NCBI GenBank assembly: GCA_001724275.1
Contig: MEDZ01000003.1
Coordinates: forward strand, 33,230-97,229
Length of the DNA: 64,000 bases
Origin: Gemmatimonadetes bacterium SCN 70-22
GTDB taxonomy: Bacteria; Gemmatimonadota; Gemmatimonadetes; Gemmatimonadales; Gemmatimonadaceae
Reading direction: 5' to 3'
Part shown: positions 13,178 to 22,858 of the stretch, piece after piece
Numbering within the stretch: the stretch's first letter is position 1
Layout: every line of letters starts with the position of its first letter
Notes under the pieces: model-generated
What the model was told of the DNA's origin: nothing
Seen by the model: only the letters and a program-made list of their open reading frames with translations
The model's database searches: none
Made by a program: the position numbers and the translations under genes

Positions 13178-15799
13178 TCACAGCCAGCTCCCGAAGCGCC
13201 GGATGTACCACCCCTTCGTCAGCTGCACGAGCCCCGCATAGGCCAGCAGGATGAGTGCCAGCCACGCGAAGTAGATCGGAGGGAGCGCCTGCAATCCAAG
13301 CCTGGTCCCGAACGGCGTGTACGGGATCAGCACCCCCGTGGCGATGATCGCGCTCGTGAGCGCCAGCACCGGCCACGCGGCACGGCTCTGGACGAACGGG
13401 ACCTTGGCGGTGCGGATCATGTGGACGATGAGCGTCTGCGTAGCGAGCGACTCCACGAACCATCCCGTCTGGAAGAGTGACTGGTGCGCGCTGGCGTTCG
13501 CCCCGAAGACGAACCACATCAGCGCGAAGGTGAGCAGGTCGAAGACGGAGCTCGTGGGGCCGATGTACGCCATGAACCGCCCGATGTCGTCGGCGCGCCA
13601 TTTCCGGGGGATCGTCAGGTACTCCGGATCCATCGCGTCCCACGGGATCGACGTCTGCGACAGGTCGTAGAGCAGGTTCACCGTCAGCAGCTGGATCGGG
13701 AGCATCGGCAGGAACGGGAGGAAGGCGCTCGCCACCAGCACGCTGAGGACGTTCCCGAAGTTCGAACTCGCCGTCATCTTGATGTACTTGATGGTGTTGC
13801 CGAAGGTCTTGCGACCCTCGAGCACCCCCTCCTCGAGCACCATCAGGCTCTTCTCGAGCAGGATGATGTCGGCCGACTCCTTGGCGATGTCGACCGCCGA
13901 GTCGACGGAGATCCCCACGTCGGCCTCGCGCAGGGCGCCGGCGTCGTTGATCCCGTCGCCCATGAAGCCCACGGTGTGCCCGAGCGCGCGCAGCGCCCGG
14001 ACGATACGCACCTTGTCGTCAGGCGTGAGCTTGGCGAAGACGATCCCGCGGTCGGCCACCGTGCCTAACGCCTGCTCGTCGAGCCCGGCCAGGTCGGGGC
14101 CGAGAACGATGGCGCCGGCATCGAGCCCCACGTCGTGGCAGGTCTTCCGCGTCACCACGTCGTTGTCGCCGGTCAGGATCTTCACCGCGACGCCGTGCTG
14201 CGCCAGCGCCCGCAGCGCCGGCGCCGCCGAGTCCTTCGGCGGGTCGAGGAAGCCCATGAAGCCGGCCAGCACCAGCTCGCACTCGTCGCGCACCGCGTAG
14301 GGGCCGTGCGTCGGCTCGAAGTCGCGATAGGCGACCGCCACCACGCGGAAGCCGTCGGCGTTCAGCTCCGTCACCAGCTCCCGCGCATCCTCCAGGCGCT
14401 CCGCGTCGAGAGCGACGACCTTCTCCTCGTCGTGCACCTGCTGGCACAACGAGAGCACTTCCTCGACCGCCCCCTTGCAGATCAGCTGGTGGTGCCGGCG
14501 CTCGTGGTCGACCACCACCGACATGCGCCGGCGCGCGAAGTCGAAGGGGATCTCGTCGATCTTCCCGTATGCCTTGTCGATCGCCAGCTCGCGATGCAGG
14601 TCGCCGTGCTCCAGGATCGCGACGTCGAGGAGGTTCTTGAGCCCCGTCTGGTAGAACGAGTTGAGGTAGGCGAGCGCCAGTACCCAGTCGTCCTCCTCGC
14701 CGACCACGTTGAGGTGACGCTCGAGGACGATCTTGTCCTGCGTGAGCGTCCCCGTCTTGTCGGTGCAGAGGACGTCCATCGCCCCGAAGTTCTGGATGGA
14801 GTGCAGGCGCTTCACGATCGTCTTGTGCCGCGCCATCGCGACGGCGCCCTTGGCGAGGTTGGTCGTGACGATCATCGGAAGCATCTCGGGGGTGAGCCCG
14901 ACCGCGATGGCGAGGCCGAAGAGGAGCGACTCGAGCCAGTTCCCCTTCGTGATCACGTTCAGGAGGAATACGATCGGGACCATCACCAGGATGAACCGGA
15001 TGAAGAGCCAGCTCACCTTGTTGACGCCCACGTCGAATGCCGTCGGGGCGCGCTCCCCTTCCAGCCCCTTCGCCAGGCGGCCCACCATCGTCGCGCTCCC
15101 CGTGGCGAGGACGACGGCGGTGGCTGTGCCGCTGACGACGCTCGATCCCATGTAGCAGATCGTCGGGAGATCGGTGGCGGCCATCGCACTCGCCGATGGC
15201 TCCGCGCGATCGGCCTTCTCCACCGGCACCGCCTCACCGGTCAGCGCGGCCTGGCTGACGAAGACATCCTTGGCCACGAGCAGGCGGACGTCGGCGGGGA
15301 TCATGTCGCCGGCCGACAGGTACACGATGTCGCCCGGCACCAGCTCGTGCATGGCGATCTCGCGCCGGCGCACCGCCGGCGCGTTCCCCGCGATGTATTC
15401 GTCGCCCGCGCGCTCGACGGTGGCATTCGTGCACACCAACGCGCGCAGCGCCTCGGCCGCCGAGTGCGACCGGTACTCCTGCACGAAGCGGAGGATGGTG
15501 CTCAGCGTAACCATCAGGGCGATGACGACGACCGCCCGCATGTCCCCGGTGATCCCCGAGACGACGGCCAGCGTCGTCACCAGCAGGTTGAACGGACTGA
15601 CGAAGGCGCGGCGGAGTTGGACGTACCACGGAGGCGTCTTCTCGTGGGCGACCTCGTTGGCGCCGAACCGGGCACGGCGCGACTCCGCTTCTTCGTCAGT
15701 GATCCCCGACCGCGTGGTCTGCAGCTCGGCGAGCACCGCCTCGGCGTCGAGGCAGGCAAGGCGAGCGAGGGGCGAGTGGGCGACGTCGACGTTTGCCAT
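13178..15799 (-). CDS. mgtA: Magnesium-importing P-type ATPase (P3B, MgtA/MgtB type)
   Basis: An 873-residue P-type ATPase of the inner membrane that imports Mg2+ at the cost of ATP. The phosphorylated Asp is in DKTGT at residues 347-351. The actuator-domain TGEA is at 187-190, the transmembrane motif GLTPEMLPMIV at about 301-311, and the hinge MGDGIND in the second cytosolic loop. The C-terminal membrane block contains LPMLPIQLLTVNLLYDLSQ and IPWDAMDPE, distinctive for MgtA/MgtB rather than Ca2+ pumps. The start MANVDVAHS at 15799 fits the family's short cytosolic head; the open frame upstream is Arg-rich and unlike any ATPase. A GTG one codon earlier is possible. A leader with several hairpins precedes it. 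No MgtC or CorA neighbour. Confidence 0.93.
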   Translation of the reverse strand: MANVDVAHSPLARLACLDAEAVLAELQTTRSGITDEEAESRRARFGANEVAHEKTPPWYVQLRRAFVSPFNLLVTTLAVVSGITGDMRAVVVIALMVTLSTILRFVQEYRSHSAAEALRALVCTNATVERAGDEYIAGNAPAVRRREIAMHELVPGDIVYLSAGDMIPADVRLLVAKDVFVSQAALTGEAVPVEKADRAEPSASAMAATDLPTICYMGSSVVSGTATAVVLATGSATMVGRLAKGLEGERAPTAFDVGVNKVSWLFIRFILVMVPIVFLLNVITKGNWLESLLFGLAIAVGLTPEMLPMIVTTNLAKGAVAMARHKTIVKRLHSIQNFGAMDVLCTDKTGTLTQDKIVLERHLNVVGEEDDWVLALAYLNSFYQTGLKNLLDVAILEHGDLHRELAIDKAYGKIDEIPFDFARRRMSVVVDHERRHHQLICKGAVEEVLSLCQQVHDEEKVVALDAERLEDARELVTELNADGFRVVAVAYRDFEPTHGPYAVRDECELVLAGFMGFLDPPKDSAAPALRALAQHGVAVKILTGDNDVVTRKTCHDVGLDAGAIVLGPDLAGLDEQALGTVADRGIVFAKLTPDDKVRIVRALRALGHTVGFMGDGINDAGALREADVGISVDSAVDIAKESADIILLEKSLMVLEEGVLEGRKTFGNTIKYIKMTASSNFGNVLSVLVASAFLPFLPMLPIQLLTVNLLYDLSQTSIPWDAMDPEYLTIPRKWRADDIGRFMAYIGPTSSVFDLLTFALMWFVFGANASAHQSLFQTGWFVESLATQTLIVHMIRTAKVPFVQSRAAWPVLALTSAIIATGVLIPYTPFGTRLGLQALPPIYFAWLALILLAYAGLVQLTKGWYIRRFGSWL

Positions 15800-16130
15800 C
15801 ACGTGGCAATCTCGTCGCGCGACCTTGCCCCTCGATGAAGCGGGTAGGGGCAGGGCGCGGTCTGCCGTGCCCCTCCCGCGTCTGCCGCCCGCGCCGGCGC
15901 TGGCCGCTCGCATCGAATCCCGCCTCGTGCTTCGGACACCGCACTCGAGCGCCCCGAGTCTGCAGGAGACTCGGAGCGGCTTGGAGGTGTTTCCACACGG
16001 TAGGTGGCTACCCCTTGATCGGCACGCGACGACTACCGCGCTTCGCCGAAGGCGACTCAGGGTGATGGAGACGGCACGCGGACCACCAATCCGCATTCCC
16101 TGGATACCGCCCTCGGTTTGCCCCTCGACG
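15800..16130 (-). promoter_or_regulatory. Long hairpin-rich leader region of mgtA
   Basis: About 330 non-coding bases separate the tRNA-Phe terminator from mgtA. Read on the minus strand it contains several perfect small hairpins: GGTAG/CTACC around 16003-16016, an AGACTCGG/CCGAGTCT 8-base stem at about 15953-15973, and CGCCTTCGGCGAAGCG near 16040-16055. mgtA leaders in other bacteria sense Mg2+ in different ways. This one does not match the M-box consensus that I know, so a regulatory role is inference. Confidence 0.35.
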
Positions 16131-16206: not shown

Positions 16207-16279
<73 letters not shown>

Positions 16280-16324: not shown

Positions 16325-19300
16325 CTACTCCCCACCGCCGGCAACAGGAACCCCTGCCCCCACCTGACCCAGCTCCCGCTCCTTCCACAACGACCAGACC
16401 GCCGGGATCACCACCAGCGTCAGCACCGTGCTCGAGATCATCCCCCCCACCATCGGCGCGGCGATCCGCTTCATCACGCTCGCCCCCGCCCCATCTCCCC
16501 ACAGGATCGGAACCAGCCCCGCCATGATCGCCGTGACCGTCATCATCTTGGGACGCACACGCTCCACGGCCCCCTCCACCACCACGTCCCACAGCTCCTG
16601 GCGCGTCACCACCGCACCGCGCGCGCGCCGGGCAGCCCAGGCGTGGTCCAGGTAGATCAGCATCACCACCCCCGTCTCCGCCGCCACCCCGGCCAGCGCG
16701 ATGAAGCCGATGGCCACCGCCACCGACCAGTTGTAGCCCAGCGCCCACACGAACCAGATACCGCCCACCACGGCGAACGGGAGCGAGCACATCACGATCA
16801 GCGTCTCCCCCACGCTGCGGAAGTTGAAGTACAGCAGGAGGAAGATGATGGCCAGCGTGGCCGGGATCACGACCTGCATCGTGCCCCGCGCGCGCTCCAT
16901 GTACTCGTACTGCCCGCTCCACACGATGCTGTACCCGGGGGGGAGCGTCACCATGTCGCGCACCATCTGCTGCGCCTCGTGCACGTAGCTCCCGATGTCA
17001 CGCCCCACCACGTCCACGTACACCCACGCGGTCGGCATCGCCCCTTCCGTGCGCACCACCATCGGCCCCGCCACCTGCTTGATCGTGGCCAGCTGCCCCA
17101 ACGGCACCTGCGCCGCCGGAGCGGTCATTGCGCCTGGCGGGCTCGCCATCCCCGCTCCCGGCAACGCCCGCCCTCCCGCGCTCGCCGTCATCACCCCGCC
17201 CCCCTCCACCCCTCCCCCCGCACCGATCCCCTGGTTCACCGGGACCAGCACCGACGCCAGGCGCTCGGGCGTGTCCCGCAACTCCTGCGGATAGCGCACC
17301 CGCACACCATAGCGCTCGCGCCCCTCCACGGTCTGTGTGATCGTCATCCCCCCGATGGCCGTCGCGATGACGGTCTGGATGTCCGCCACGTTGACCCCGT
17401 GCCGCGCCGCCGCCTCCCGGTCGATGTCGATGTCGAGGTAGTAGCCCGACACGGCCCGCTCGGCGAACGCACTCCGCGTCCCCGGTATCATCTGCACCCC
17501 CTGCTCCACCTCCTTCCCCAACCGCTCCAGCGTTGCCAGGTCGGGGCCGAAGATCTTGACCCCCACCGGCGTGCGAATCCCGGTGGCCAGCATGTCGTTG
17601 CGCCCCTTGATGGGCATCGTCCACGCATTCGTCACCCCCGGCAGGCGCACCGCCGAGTCCATCGCCGCAATCAGGCGATCGGACGTCATCCCCGCCCGCC
17701 ACTCCCGCTCGGGCCTGAGCGTGATCGTCGTCTCGAACATGTCGAGCCCCGCCGGATCGGTCGCCGTGTTCGCCCGCCCCGCCTTCCCCCACACGTGCGC
17801 GACCTCGGGGAACGACTTCAGGATCGCATCCTGCTGCCGCAACAGCTCGCGCGCCCGCGCGATCGGGAGCCCCGGGAGCGTCGTCGGCATGAAGAGGATC
17901 GTCTCTTCATCCAGCGGCGGCATGAACTCGCTTCCCATCCGCGTCCACGGAATCCACGTGACGATCACGGCGAGCACCCCGGCCAGGATGACGGGGCCGC
18001 GGTGTCGCAGCACCACGTCGATCACGGGACGATACAGCCGGATCAGGAGGCGATTGAGCGGGTTGGCACGCTCGCGATAGATCCGCCCGCGAATCAAGAG
18101 CCCCATGGCCACGGGGACGAGCGTCACCGACAACAGCGAAGCCGCCGCCATGGCGAACGTCTTGGTGAAGGCGAGCGGCTTGAACAGGCGCCCTTCCTGC
18201 CCCTCCAGCGTGAACACCGGGAGGAACGACACGGTGATGATGAGGAGCGAGAAGAAGAGCGCCGGCCCCACCTCCTGCGCGCTCTCCACCACGATGCGCC
18301 AGCGCTCGGCGGTGGTGAGGTGGCGCGTCGAGAAGAAGCGGCCGCCCGCCCCGTCGGCGTCCGGCCGCGCCGCATGCTCGAGATGCTTGTGCATGTTCTC
18401 GATCATCACGATGGCGGCGTCGATCATGGCGCCGATGGCGATGGCGATCCCGCCCAGCGACATGATGTCCGCCCCCACCCCCACCATGCGCATCGCGAGG
18501 AAGGCGATCAGGATCCCGATCGGGAGCGTCAGGATCGCCACCAGCGCCGACTGCGCGTGCAGCAGGAAGATGACGCACACCAGCGCCACGATGAGCGACT
18601 CCTCGAGCAGCTTCCACGTCAGGGTGTCGATGGCGTGCTCGATGAGCGCGCTCCGGTCGTAGACCGGTCGCACGACGACGCCGGGCGGCAGCCCCGACTG
18701 CACCTCCGCCAGCTTGGCCTTCACCCGCTCGATCGTCGTCAGGGCGTTCTCGCCGAATCGCATCACGACGATGCCGCCCACGGCGTCGCCTCGCCCATCC
18801 AGCTCCGCGATCCCGCGACGAATCGCGGGGCCCACCGACACGCGCCCCAGCTCCGCCACGCGAATCGGCGTCCCCGACGCCGTCGCCCCGACCACCACGT
18901 TCTCGATGTCGGCGAGCGACTTGAGGTAGCCGAGCCCGCGCACCATGTACTCGCGCTCGGACAGCTCCATCGTCATCGCCCCCACGTCGCTGTTGGCCGC
19001 CTGCAGCGCGCTCATCACGCGCGTGACGGGAATGCCGTAGGCCAGGAGCTTGGTCGGGTCGATGTCCACCTGATACTGCTTCTCGAAGCCGCCGATGCTC
19101 GCTACTTCGGCCACGCCGGGGACGGCCGTGAGGGCATAGCGGAGGTACCAATCCTGCACGCCGCGCAGCTGCGCCAGGTTCAGGCGGCCGCTGGTGTCCT
19201 CCAGGGCATACTGGTACACCCAGCCAAGCCCCGTGGCGTCGGGGCCTAACGACGGCGTGACGCTGGGCGGGAGCTTCCCCTGGATCCCGTTGAGGTACTC

Positions 19301-19633
19301 CAGCACGCGGCTGCGCGCCCAGTACAGGTCGGTGCCGTCCTCGAAGATGATGTAGACGAAGGAGACGCCGAAGAACGAATAGCCGCGAACCGTCTGCGCC
19401 CCGGGAACCTTGAGCATCTCCGCGGCGATGGGATACGTGACCTGGTCCTCGACGATCCGCGGTGCCTGCTCGTTGTAGTCCGCCTGCACGATCACCTGCA
19501 CGTCGCTCAGGTCGGGGAGCGCCTCCAGCGGCGTGCGACGCAGCGCCTGCACTCCGGCGATGGCCAGGCCGACGGTGAAGATCGTGACGATGAGGACGTT
19601 CGCGGTCGACCAGCTGATGATGCGCTTGAGCAT
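16325..19633 (-). CDS. cusA: Heavy-metal RND efflux pump, Cu(I)/Ag(I) type (CusA)
   Basis: A 1102-residue inner-membrane proton-driven pump of the HME-RND family. It starts MLKRIISWSTANVLIVTIF, has the 12-segment layout with two large periplasmic loops, and carries IGAMIDAAIVMIENMHKHLE in TM4. That variant (GAMxDAAIVMIEN) marks monovalent Cu/Ag pumps, whereas divalent-metal CzcA pumps differ there. DLSDVQVIVQADYNEQAP near residue 40 and GSEFMPPLDEETILFMPTT near 570 are also conserved. An unusual Gly/Ala/Met-rich insertion of about 35 residues sits in the second periplasmic loop (about 17110-17240). The ATG at 19633 follows GGAGGGACCC and is 10 bases after the cusB stop; the frame open further upstream is only the cusB shadow. 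Last gene of the cusCBA operon. Confidence 0.95.
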   Translation of the reverse strand: MLKRIISWSTANVLIVTIFTVGLAIAGVQALRRTPLEALPDLSDVQVIVQADYNEQAPRIVEDQVTYPIAAEMLKVPGAQTVRGYSFFGVSFVYIIFEDGTDLYWARSRVLEYLNGIQGKLPPSVTPSLGPDATGLGWVYQYALEDTSGRLNLAQLRGVQDWYLRYALTAVPGVAEVASIGGFEKQYQVDIDPTKLLAYGIPVTRVMSALQAANSDVGAMTMELSEREYMVRGLGYLKSLADIENVVVGATASGTPIRVAELGRVSVGPAIRRGIAELDGRGDAVGGIVVMRFGENALTTIERVKAKLAEVQSGLPPGVVVRPVYDRSALIEHAIDTLTWKLLEESLIVALVCVIFLLHAQSALVAILTLPIGILIAFLAMRMVGVGADIMSLGGIAIAIGAMIDAAIVMIENMHKHLEHAARPDADGAGGRFFSTRHLTTAERWRIVVESAQEVGPALFFSLLIITVSFLPVFTLEGQEGRLFKPLAFTKTFAMAAASLLSVTLVPVAMGLLIRGRIYRERANPLNRLLIRLYRPVIDVVLRHRGPVILAGVLAVIVTWIPWTRMGSEFMPPLDEETILFMPTTLPGLPIARARELLRQQDAILKSFPEVAHVWGKAGRANTATDPAGLDMFETTITLRPEREWRAGMTSDRLIAAMDSAVRLPGVTNAWTMPIKGRNDMLATGIRTPVGVKIFGPDLATLERLGKEVEQGVQMIPGTRSAFAERAVSGYYLDIDIDREAAARHGVNVADIQTVIATAIGGMTITQTVEGRERYGVRVRYPQELRDTPERLASVLVPVNQGIGAGGGVEGGGVMTASAGGRALPGAGMASPPGAMTAPAAQVPLGQLATIKQVAGPMVVRTEGAMPTAWVYVDVVGRDIGSYVHEAQQMVRDMVTLPPGYSIVWSGQYEYMERARGTMQVVIPATLAIIFLLLYFNFRSVGETLIVMCSLPFAVVGGIWFVWALGYNWSVAVAIGFIALAGVAAETGVVMLIYLDHAWAARRARGAVVTRQELWDVVVEGAVERVRPKMMTVTAIMAGLVPILWGDGAGASVMKRIAAPMVGGMISSTVLTLVVIPAVWSLWKERELGQVGAGVPVAGGGE

Positions 19634-19643
19634 GGGTCCCTCC

Positions 19644-21014
19644 CTACTGCCGGTGCCCGGAGTGATCCATCGCCGGCATCTCGTGGCCCGCATGCGACGT
19701 ATCGGCGCCCTTCGCCCTTGGCGGCGCCCCGCCCCCCGGCGTCCCCCGCGACGGCGTCTCCCGCATGGGAAGCGGCACGGGCGGCGTCTGCAGCTCCATC
19801 CCCGGCATGTTCCCCATGCCGCCCAACGCCTTGCCCAGGTTCGACTCGGCGTCCACCAGGAACGTCGCCGAGGCCACCACCGTGTCGCCGGCCGCGATCC
19901 CGCGCAGGATCTCGATGCGCTCGTCGTTGGCGCTCCCGATCGCCACCTCGCGCGGGACCAGCATCCCCGACGCCTCGCGCACGAAGACCACGTGGCGCTC
20001 GCCGGTCGAGAGCACGGCATCCCGCGGCACCGTCAGCACCTGGGGGCGCGTCGCCCCCACGATGCGAACCGTCGCGTACATCCCGGGCTTGAGCCGGGCG
20101 TCCGCGTTCGCCAGCACCACGCGCACGCGCGCCGTGCGCGTTTCCGGGCTGATGGTCGGATACACGAAGGTGATCCGCCCCATGCGATGCTCCCCGGGAA
20201 GGGCGGGGAAGTCGGCGTGCACCGTCAACCCGACGCGAACGTCTGCCAGGTCCTGTTCGAACACCTCCCCCTCCACCCACACCTCGCGAAGGTCGGCCAC
20301 GCGATACAGGGCATCGCCGGCCATGACCTTCTGCCCCGCCACCACGTTCTTCTCGATCACGTAGCCGCTGGTCGGCGCGTACAGGGTGATCGACTTGCGC
20401 ACCTGGCCGGACCGCTCGATCTCCCGAATCTCCGCGTCCGGCACGTCCCAGTACGCGAGGCGCCGCCGCGCCGACTCGAGCAGCTCGTCGGCATTGTTGC
20501 GCGCCCCCGCCGCGGCATCCGACAGCTTGCCCTGCAGCGACTTCGCCAGCAGCAACTCCTCCTGCGCCTGAACCAGCATCGGAGAGTACAGCGCGAACAA
20601 CGGCTCCCCTGCGGCAATCGGTTGCCCGGTGGCATTCACCAGGAGGCGCTCGACCCACCCGTCGACCTTGAGGCTGATGGCACTCAGCCGCGTCTCGTCG
20701 TACGTCACCTGCCCCACGGTGCGGATGTCGTGCCCGAACGGGCCCACGTCCGCGACGGCGTAGGTCACGCCGATTCGCCGTTCCTGCTCCGGCGTGAGCA
20801 TGACGGGCTGTGCCGCTCCCCCCGACGCCGCCATGGCACCGTGATCGTGTCCCCCCGCCGCCGGTGTCGGGGCGCTGGTCCCGCGGGTCGCGAAGTAGAC
20901 GCCCGCGAGCGTCGCCAGCACGATCCCTCCGTAGATCGCCCCCCTGGCCACGGGGCGCGGGCCACTCGAACGCGCCCCCGCCGCATGCAAGGCGCGATTG
21001 GTCTCGCCGGTCAT
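19644..21014 (-). CDS. cusB: Efflux RND transporter periplasmic adaptor subunit (CusB-like)
   Basis: A 456-residue membrane-fusion protein linking CusA to the outer-membrane channel. After a short cytosolic head there is one N-terminal anchor (GAIYGGIVLATLAGVYFAT). Then follow a His/Met-containing segment (GGHDHGAMAASGG), the lipoyl and hairpin domain (VGQVTYDETRLSAISLKVDG, LYSPMLVQAQEELL), and beta-barrel region APTSGYVIEKNVVAGQKVM. The tail is rich in His and Met (HAGHEMPAMDHSGHRQ), suggesting Cu/Ag binding. The ATG at 21014-21012 overlaps the stop of the upstream channel gene as ATGA. Its own stop is 10 bases before cusA, so the three genes are translated as a unit. Confidence 0.94.
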   Translation of the reverse strand: MTGETNRALHAAGARSSGPRPVARGAIYGGIVLATLAGVYFATRGTSAPTPAAGGHDHGAMAASGGAAQPVMLTPEQERRIGVTYAVADVGPFGHDIRTVGQVTYDETRLSAISLKVDGWVERLLVNATGQPIAAGEPLFALYSPMLVQAQEELLLAKSLQGKLSDAAAGARNNADELLESARRRLAYWDVPDAEIREIERSGQVRKSITLYAPTSGYVIEKNVVAGQKVMAGDALYRVADLREVWVEGEVFEQDLADVRVGLTVHADFPALPGEHRMGRITFVYPTISPETRTARVRVVLANADARLKPGMYATVRIVGATRPQVLTVPRDAVLSTGERHVVFVREASGMLVPREVAIGSANDERIEILRGIAAGDTVVASATFLVDAESNLGKALGGMGNMPGMELQTPPVPLPMRETPSRGTPGGGAPPRAKGADTSHAGHEMPAMDHSGHRQ

Positions 21015-22375
21015 CGTGCACCTCCTGGTGCGGGCGCATCGCCGGGGCGACGCACGTTCGGGTTCGGCCCCGTGTCGTCGGGGGCGACGGTGTCGGGATC
21101 GAGGAGCTCGCGGGCGCTGAGCATCTCCAGCTCGGCCCACGCCTTCCCCTGCTCGGACTCGAGCGTGACCAGCTCCTGGCGGTAACGGTTCACGCTCATG
21201 CGGCTGTCGAGGAGCGTCATGAAGTCCACGCTCCCCACGCGATAGGCAGCGAGCGCCGAGGCCACGGCCGCTTCCGCTTGCGGGAGGATCTCGGTGCGAT
21301 AGAGCGCGGCGAGACGCCGCGCGCGCTGCAGCGCGGCATGTGCCTCGCCCATGCGCCCCCGCGTCTCCGCGCGCATCGCGGCAAGATCCGCCGCCGCCAT
21401 CTGGCGCATGGCGGCCGCCTCGCTGCGCATCTCCAGTTGGCGCGAGCGCGCGAAGACCGGGATGGAGGCGCCGATCATGAGGCTCGCCATGTGCTCGCGC
21501 CCGCCCCCGCCCATCCCGTCCAGCGCTGAGGCGCGCTGCGTGCCGTACTGGATCCCCACTTGCAGGTCGGGGATGAGCTCGCGCCGGGCCAGCGTCTCGC
21601 TCGCCTCGGCCGCGCGCACCTCCTCGACCCCTGCGCGCACCATGGGGCGCTGCCGGGTGGCGATCGAGTCCAGCCAGTCACGCGAGGGGACGGCCTCGGG
21701 AAATCGCGGCAGCTCCACACGACCCACCGGCGTCGCGGCGTCACGGTCCAGGAGCGCGTTGAGCCTGGCGGCCATGCTCACGCGCATGGCCAGCATGCGC
21801 AGCGTGTCCTCCGCCATTCGCGCAATCTCCACGTGGGCCCGCAGGACATCCGCCTGGCGTCCCTCCCCCACGCGATACATCGCCTCGGCCGTGCTGGCGA
21901 CATCCTGCAGCAACCGCAGCGTCTCGCGCGCGACGTCCAGGCTCCGGTCGGTGGCCGCCAGGTCGTAGTACGCCATGGCGACCTGGCTCCGGACGTCCCA
22001 CGCGGCGTCCTCCGACCTCGCGCTGGCGGCCGATGCCTGCGCCGCCGCCGCGCGCCCTGCAAGGGAGAGTTTGCCTCCCGTGGGGATCATCTGCATCAGC
22101 TGCAGCTGCGTCATCCCCACCAGGGGCATCGGCGCCAGCCCGGGCAGGGTGCGGTTCATGAAGCCGAGCTGCAGCTCCGGGTCCGGTGGCCGGCGCGCCC
22201 CGGCCACGCGCGACGCCGCCGCGCGTGCCAGCGCCTGGGCCGCCGCCACACGCGGGTTCGCCAGGCCGGCGGCGCGATAATAGTCGCCGAGTCGCTCCCC
22301 AGTCGGCGTTTGCGCCTACGCGGGGAGCGCGCGAATGGTGGCGACCAGGCAGGCCGCCCAAACATGTCGGTACAT
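21011..22375 (-). CDS. Outer-membrane efflux channel, TolC/CusC family, interrupted by an in-frame amber codon
   Basis: The channel partner of CusA/CusB. The mature part shows repeated OEP domain features: AYYDLAATDRSLDVARETLRLLQDV, QADVLRAHVEIARM, and the C-terminal helix DFMTLLDSRMSVNRYRQELV. Read from the ATG at 22375 the frame gives a signal-peptide-like start MYRHVWAACLVATIRALPA, then TAG at 22318-22316. It continues in the same frame with AQTPTGERLGDYYRAAGLAN into the rest of the protein. The amber codon replaces what is probably Gln at the cleavage site. After it the first usable start is GTG at 22249, which would give a 412-residue product with no export signal. Either the gene is damaged, the stop is read through, or the base is a sequencing error. 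Ends with an ATGA overlap to cusB. Confidence 0.85.
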
Positions 22376-22483: not shown

Positions 22484-22858
22484 TCAGGCTCGCGGTGGGG
22501 GGAGCTCCGGGGCGCGAATGCTCGTCGGTGGCCGCACGAGGTGCGGCGCGACTATTCCCGGATCGCCCTGGTCGGGAAGCGACACCCACGCCGAGGAGGG
22601 GAGCGCGGCGAGTGGGGCGCAGGCAAGCATCGAGGTGCACGACCGCGCCGCGTCCCGGTCGGGACAGTCGTCGCGGTGGCGATCCTGCGGCGCGCCGTGC
22701 GCGGCCATGTGCGTCGTCTCCGACATCGGCGCAGCGCCTGCGGCCGCGACGTCCGCCATTCCCATGCACACGACCTCGCTCGCCTGCACCGACTGCAACA
22801 GCAGCAGGGCAGCGAACACGCACGCGGCGAGTCGGCGAAGGATCGGCATGGGTTTCAT
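22484..22858 (-). CDS. Small exported Cys/His-containing protein heading the cus operon
   Basis: A 124-residue protein with a clear signal peptide (MKPMPILRRLAACVFAALLLLQSVQA). The mature part is Cys-, His-, Met- and Asp-containing: VVCMGMADVAAAG, MSETTHMAAHGAPQDRHRDD, CPDRDAARSCTSMLACAP. Such small periplasmic proteins are common at the front of copper clusters, where they are thought to bind metal; here that is inference from composition and context. It lies about 110 bases upstream of the channel gene on the same strand, so it is probably the first gene of the operon. Longer in-frame starts would run through the promoter region and lack a signal peptide. Confidence 0.65.
   Translation of the reverse strand: MKPMPILRRLAACVFAALLLLQSVQASEVVCMGMADVAAAGAAPMSETTHMAAHGAPQDRHRDDCPDRDAARSCTSMLACAPLAALPSSAWVSLPDQGDPGIVAPHLVRPPTSIRAPELPPPRA

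Follow-up and report, generated by a model that had tools for sequence, protein, structure and literature searches.

Does an in-frame amber codon near the start of a channel gene in a Gemmatimonadaceae genome mark a gene that has been lost, a wrong base in the assembly, or a codon that the cell reads through? The gene lies in the window, the whole 64,000-nt stretch that was analysed, which is a part of contig 3 of a genome of 84 contigs and 4.70 Mb; the relatives used for comparison were Gemmatimonadaceae. The features at the start of the locus are as follows.

21011-22375, minus strand: cusC/TolC-type outer membrane channel gene, broken by TAG (Pfam OEP; counterpart in congener G001)
22319-22375, minus strand: 19-codon signal-peptide-like leader, MYRHVWAACLVATIRALPA; intact relatives have signal peptides at the equivalent place
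22316-22318, minus strand: in-frame TAG, cusC codon 20, in the signal-peptide region, without counterpart in the relatives read there

The cusC frame starts at ATG 22375-22373, reaches TAG 22318-22316 after 19 codons and continues as AQTPTGERLGDYY..., with 434 open codons up to TGA 21013-21011. The sequence-only reading had placed an amber codon inside an otherwise intact TolC/CusC-type frame, and re-reading of the sequence reproduced both the coordinates and the reading exactly. Translated across the TAG, the frame matched Pfam OEP with an E value of 9.6e-35 and was 70% identical to cusC of congener G001. A putative ribosome site (GAGAGGACAGG), graded plausible, is located 5' of ATG 22375. 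The hydrophobic core of the leader had a Kyte-Doolittle 10-residue maximum of 2.30, compared to 1.99 to 2.55 in four intact relatives. The TAG takes position -2 of an A-x-A cleavage site followed by Q (the window reads PA, stop, AQ), and Gln as the lost residue is only a guess, because this position is little constrained. A leader frameshift or a start in another frame was rejected, as the ORF translations of the other two frames gave nothing signal-peptide-like.

The gene is the first of an operon with the order cusC-cusB-cusA, in which the two partner genes were as follows.

19644-21014, minus strand: cusB-type membrane fusion protein; ATGA overlap with cusC, AGGAGG at 21026-21021, TAG terminator
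16325-19633, minus strand: cusA-type RND pump (TIGR00914, CusA/CzcA), intact, TAG terminator

Partner genes that are intact and coupled had been proposed, and this description holds, with cusB joined to cusC by the ATGA overlap and cusA intact downstream. The pump scored 1147.1 bits against TIGR00914, above the curated cut-off of 701.45. The adaptor matched PF16576 with an E value of 1.7e-80; the CusB-specific NCBI model PRK09783 also matched it, but under the cut-off. From these matches, the operon is predicted to encode a heavy-metal RND efflux system of the CusA/CzcA type, for Cu/Ag or another metal. It resembles known CusCBA/CzcCBA-type operons in the set of channel, adaptor and pump, in the overlapping or closely spaced genes and in a pump belonging to TIGR00914, but differs from them in its interrupted channel gene. 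No intact exported OEP-family channel was found within the window operon: the OEP domains are present, and the TAG is in the signal-peptide region. The ribosome site of cusB, AGGAGG, lies six bases ahead of its ATG, so cusB need not rely wholly on the translation of cusC.

Matches to cusC at E <= 1e-30 were detected in 56 of the 148 Gemmatimonadaceae genomes. The fetched orthologues that reach the N-terminal region had a hydrophobic leader and an open frame, the leader commonly ending in A-x-A followed by AQ, and none of them carried a stop at the position of the window TAG. This agrees with the sequence-only reading, against which orthologues starting at GTG 22249 without a signal peptide would have counted: relatives are open at the site, have signal peptides and do not start at this GTG. 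Stops were flagged within other relatives and, where located, they fell at query positions 426-443, which is the normal C terminus, or beyond the aligned part; a pattern of internal stops across relatives was dropped, the located ones being C-terminal ends. The search of congener G002 (74% complete) gave no cusC match and was uninformative. Judged from these sequences, the TAG is private to the window genome among the relatives looked at, one genome representing the species. The 27-base leader sequence was also searched for in viral contigs, with no hit.

The part of cusC past GTG 22249 gave a Ka/Ks of 0.27 and a Ks of 0.74 against the nearest congener, G001, which falls between the Ka/Ks of cusB (0.33) and of cusA (0.14), and relative-rate counts with four outgroups showed no consistent excess in the window lineage (e.g., 33 vs. 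28 and 23 vs. 32); with the synonymous divergence high, all these values are rough estimates. They suggest that selection acted on cusC during almost the whole period after the divergence from G001. A Ka/Ks of 0.27 together with no excess of changes argues against a long decay, so the lesion would either have arisen lately or not exist in the true genome. These estimates would fit a young mutation, a wrong base call and a gene that is still used equally well, and they cannot tell the three apart.

The genome contains a second set of the same genes on contig C5, in which all frames are open.

C5, L093 10200-10814, minus strand: small ORF preceding the C5 cusC
C5, 8601-10004: cusC with signal peptide, frame open
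C5, 7129-8604: cusB, frame open
C5, 3754-7122: cusA, frame open

The pumps of the two sets are about 78-80% identical and the channels 62% identical. Overall, 37 OEP-domain matches were found in the genome, corresponding to about 19 genes with two domains each, and no internal stops occurred within the matched parts; none were seen in the RND pump matches either. The use of another channel had been listed among the possible explanations, and the C5 set does supply a second channel gene that is intact and accompanied by its own pump. With this second set and the other OEP genes, the loss of one channel would plausibly be tolerated.

We consider it probable that the base is real and that cusC has undergone a recent loss-of-function nonsense mutation in a redundant channel copy. 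A single-base substitution would recently have created the TAG in the window copy of the CusC-type channel gene. Translation would halt after 19 signal-peptide residues, and this copy would yield no exported channel. Both cusB and cusA could still be expressed, since cusB has a strong ribosome site of its own and cusA starts separately. The cusA-cusB pump would have to borrow a different channel in the outer membrane; the C5 cusC product is the simplest candidate and may be able to substitute. A private stop with the rest of the frame conserved is what a young nonsense pseudogene presents, and the window cusC shares with young bacterial pseudogenes the lone in-frame stop, the intact remaining frame, the signature of selection and the intact orthologues in relatives. 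No tested feature sets it apart from them; in this case, the second set makes the loss tolerable. Among bacterial genomes, an interruption of this kind is nothing out of the ordinary.

The alternative that survives best is an intact gene in which the TAG arose as a consensus error, from sequencing, polishing or a mixture of strains; we regard this as rather unlikely. Apart from the TAG, cusC does look functional, with a good ribosome site, a signal-peptide core, a conserved frame and a normal rate of change. Against an error, substitution errors seldom occur in consensus sequence, and this assembly is not visibly error-rich, as its OEP-domain and RND pump matches are free of internal stops.

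Read-through of the TAG by a near-cognate tRNA, at a low or regulated level and giving a little full-length channel, is improbable. The purifying selection on the frame downstream of the TAG is what it would predict, and a survey of in-frame stops provides its best general support: it argues that such stops are common in bacterial genes, reports that many of these genes retain low dN/dS and takes this to favour read-through (PMC7918605). A very young mutation would produce the same Ka/Ks, and the survey values too are what a recent mutation predicts. The decoding apparatus of the genome also stands against read-through. Genes for tRNA were located with Rfam RF00005, and their anticodons were read by ARAGORN. 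Forty-seven genes were above the Rfam cut-off, ARAGORN read 47 at the corresponding loci, and every anticodon was a sense one; CUA, UCA or UUA was not among them. A search for an amber suppressor had been suggested from the sequence, and the 47 tRNA genes contained none. The RF1 gene, prfA, is encoded (481.6 bits, exceeding the cut-off), and TAG terminates both cusB and cusA, so that neither the loss of RF1 nor the avoidance of TAG expected under reassignment was found. In a crude composition-based list, 12 of the 32 gene-like frames of the window, about a third, end in TAG. Nothing suggests stop-codon reassignment or amber suppression in this genome. The TAG is shared by no relative read at the site and hence is not a conserved device, as conserved programmed read-through would require. 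A lineage-specific variant, in which the amber codon acts as an expression brake and near-cognate read-through gives a little exported channel, is more improbable still.

The remaining alternative, that the true start is GTG 22249, is almost certainly wrong: this is the first usual start codon past the TAG, with no earlier in-frame ATG, GTG or TTG in the sequence that follows the TAG, but the orthologues have signal peptides and conserved mature residues (LGDYY..NPR) that such a start would lose, and an outer membrane channel without export would not function. Signal-bearing orthologues, no suppressor tRNA, TAG in use as a stop codon within the operon and a second channel leave a fresh mutation or a base error. 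The explanations listed in the sequence-only reading were sound as a list; these two stand, and read-through has become unlikely.

The interrupted cusC has little significance past annotation. If real, it would mean that a metal-efflux system present in duplicate is losing the channel of one copy, and would offer a natural setting in which to ask whether channels are shared by RND pumps of different operons. It also calls for caution, as a lone in-frame stop in an assembly should not be taken for evidence of recoding.

Two further genes and a tRNA gene border the operon.

22484-22858, minus strand: small secreted-looking protein bearing Cys, Met and His, tail APELPPPRA; found 5' of cusC in many relatives
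16207-16279, minus strand: tRNA-Phe (GAA), just 3' of cusA (last base of its stop codon, 16325)
13178-16096, minus strand: magnesium-type P-type ATPase, adjoining the operon

The small protein gave no match in a Pfam search. Proteins with its conserved C-terminal tail, APE(L/P)PPPRA, lie upstream of cusC in many Gemmatimonadaceae and in most fetched relatives, a count biased by a search made with the tail motif itself. It could be a small, undescribed component of these operons that binds metal or has a regulatory role. The P-type ATPase matched TIGR01524 with 1245 bits; its listed start adds about 110 unmatched N-terminal residues, so the actual start codon probably lies more internally.
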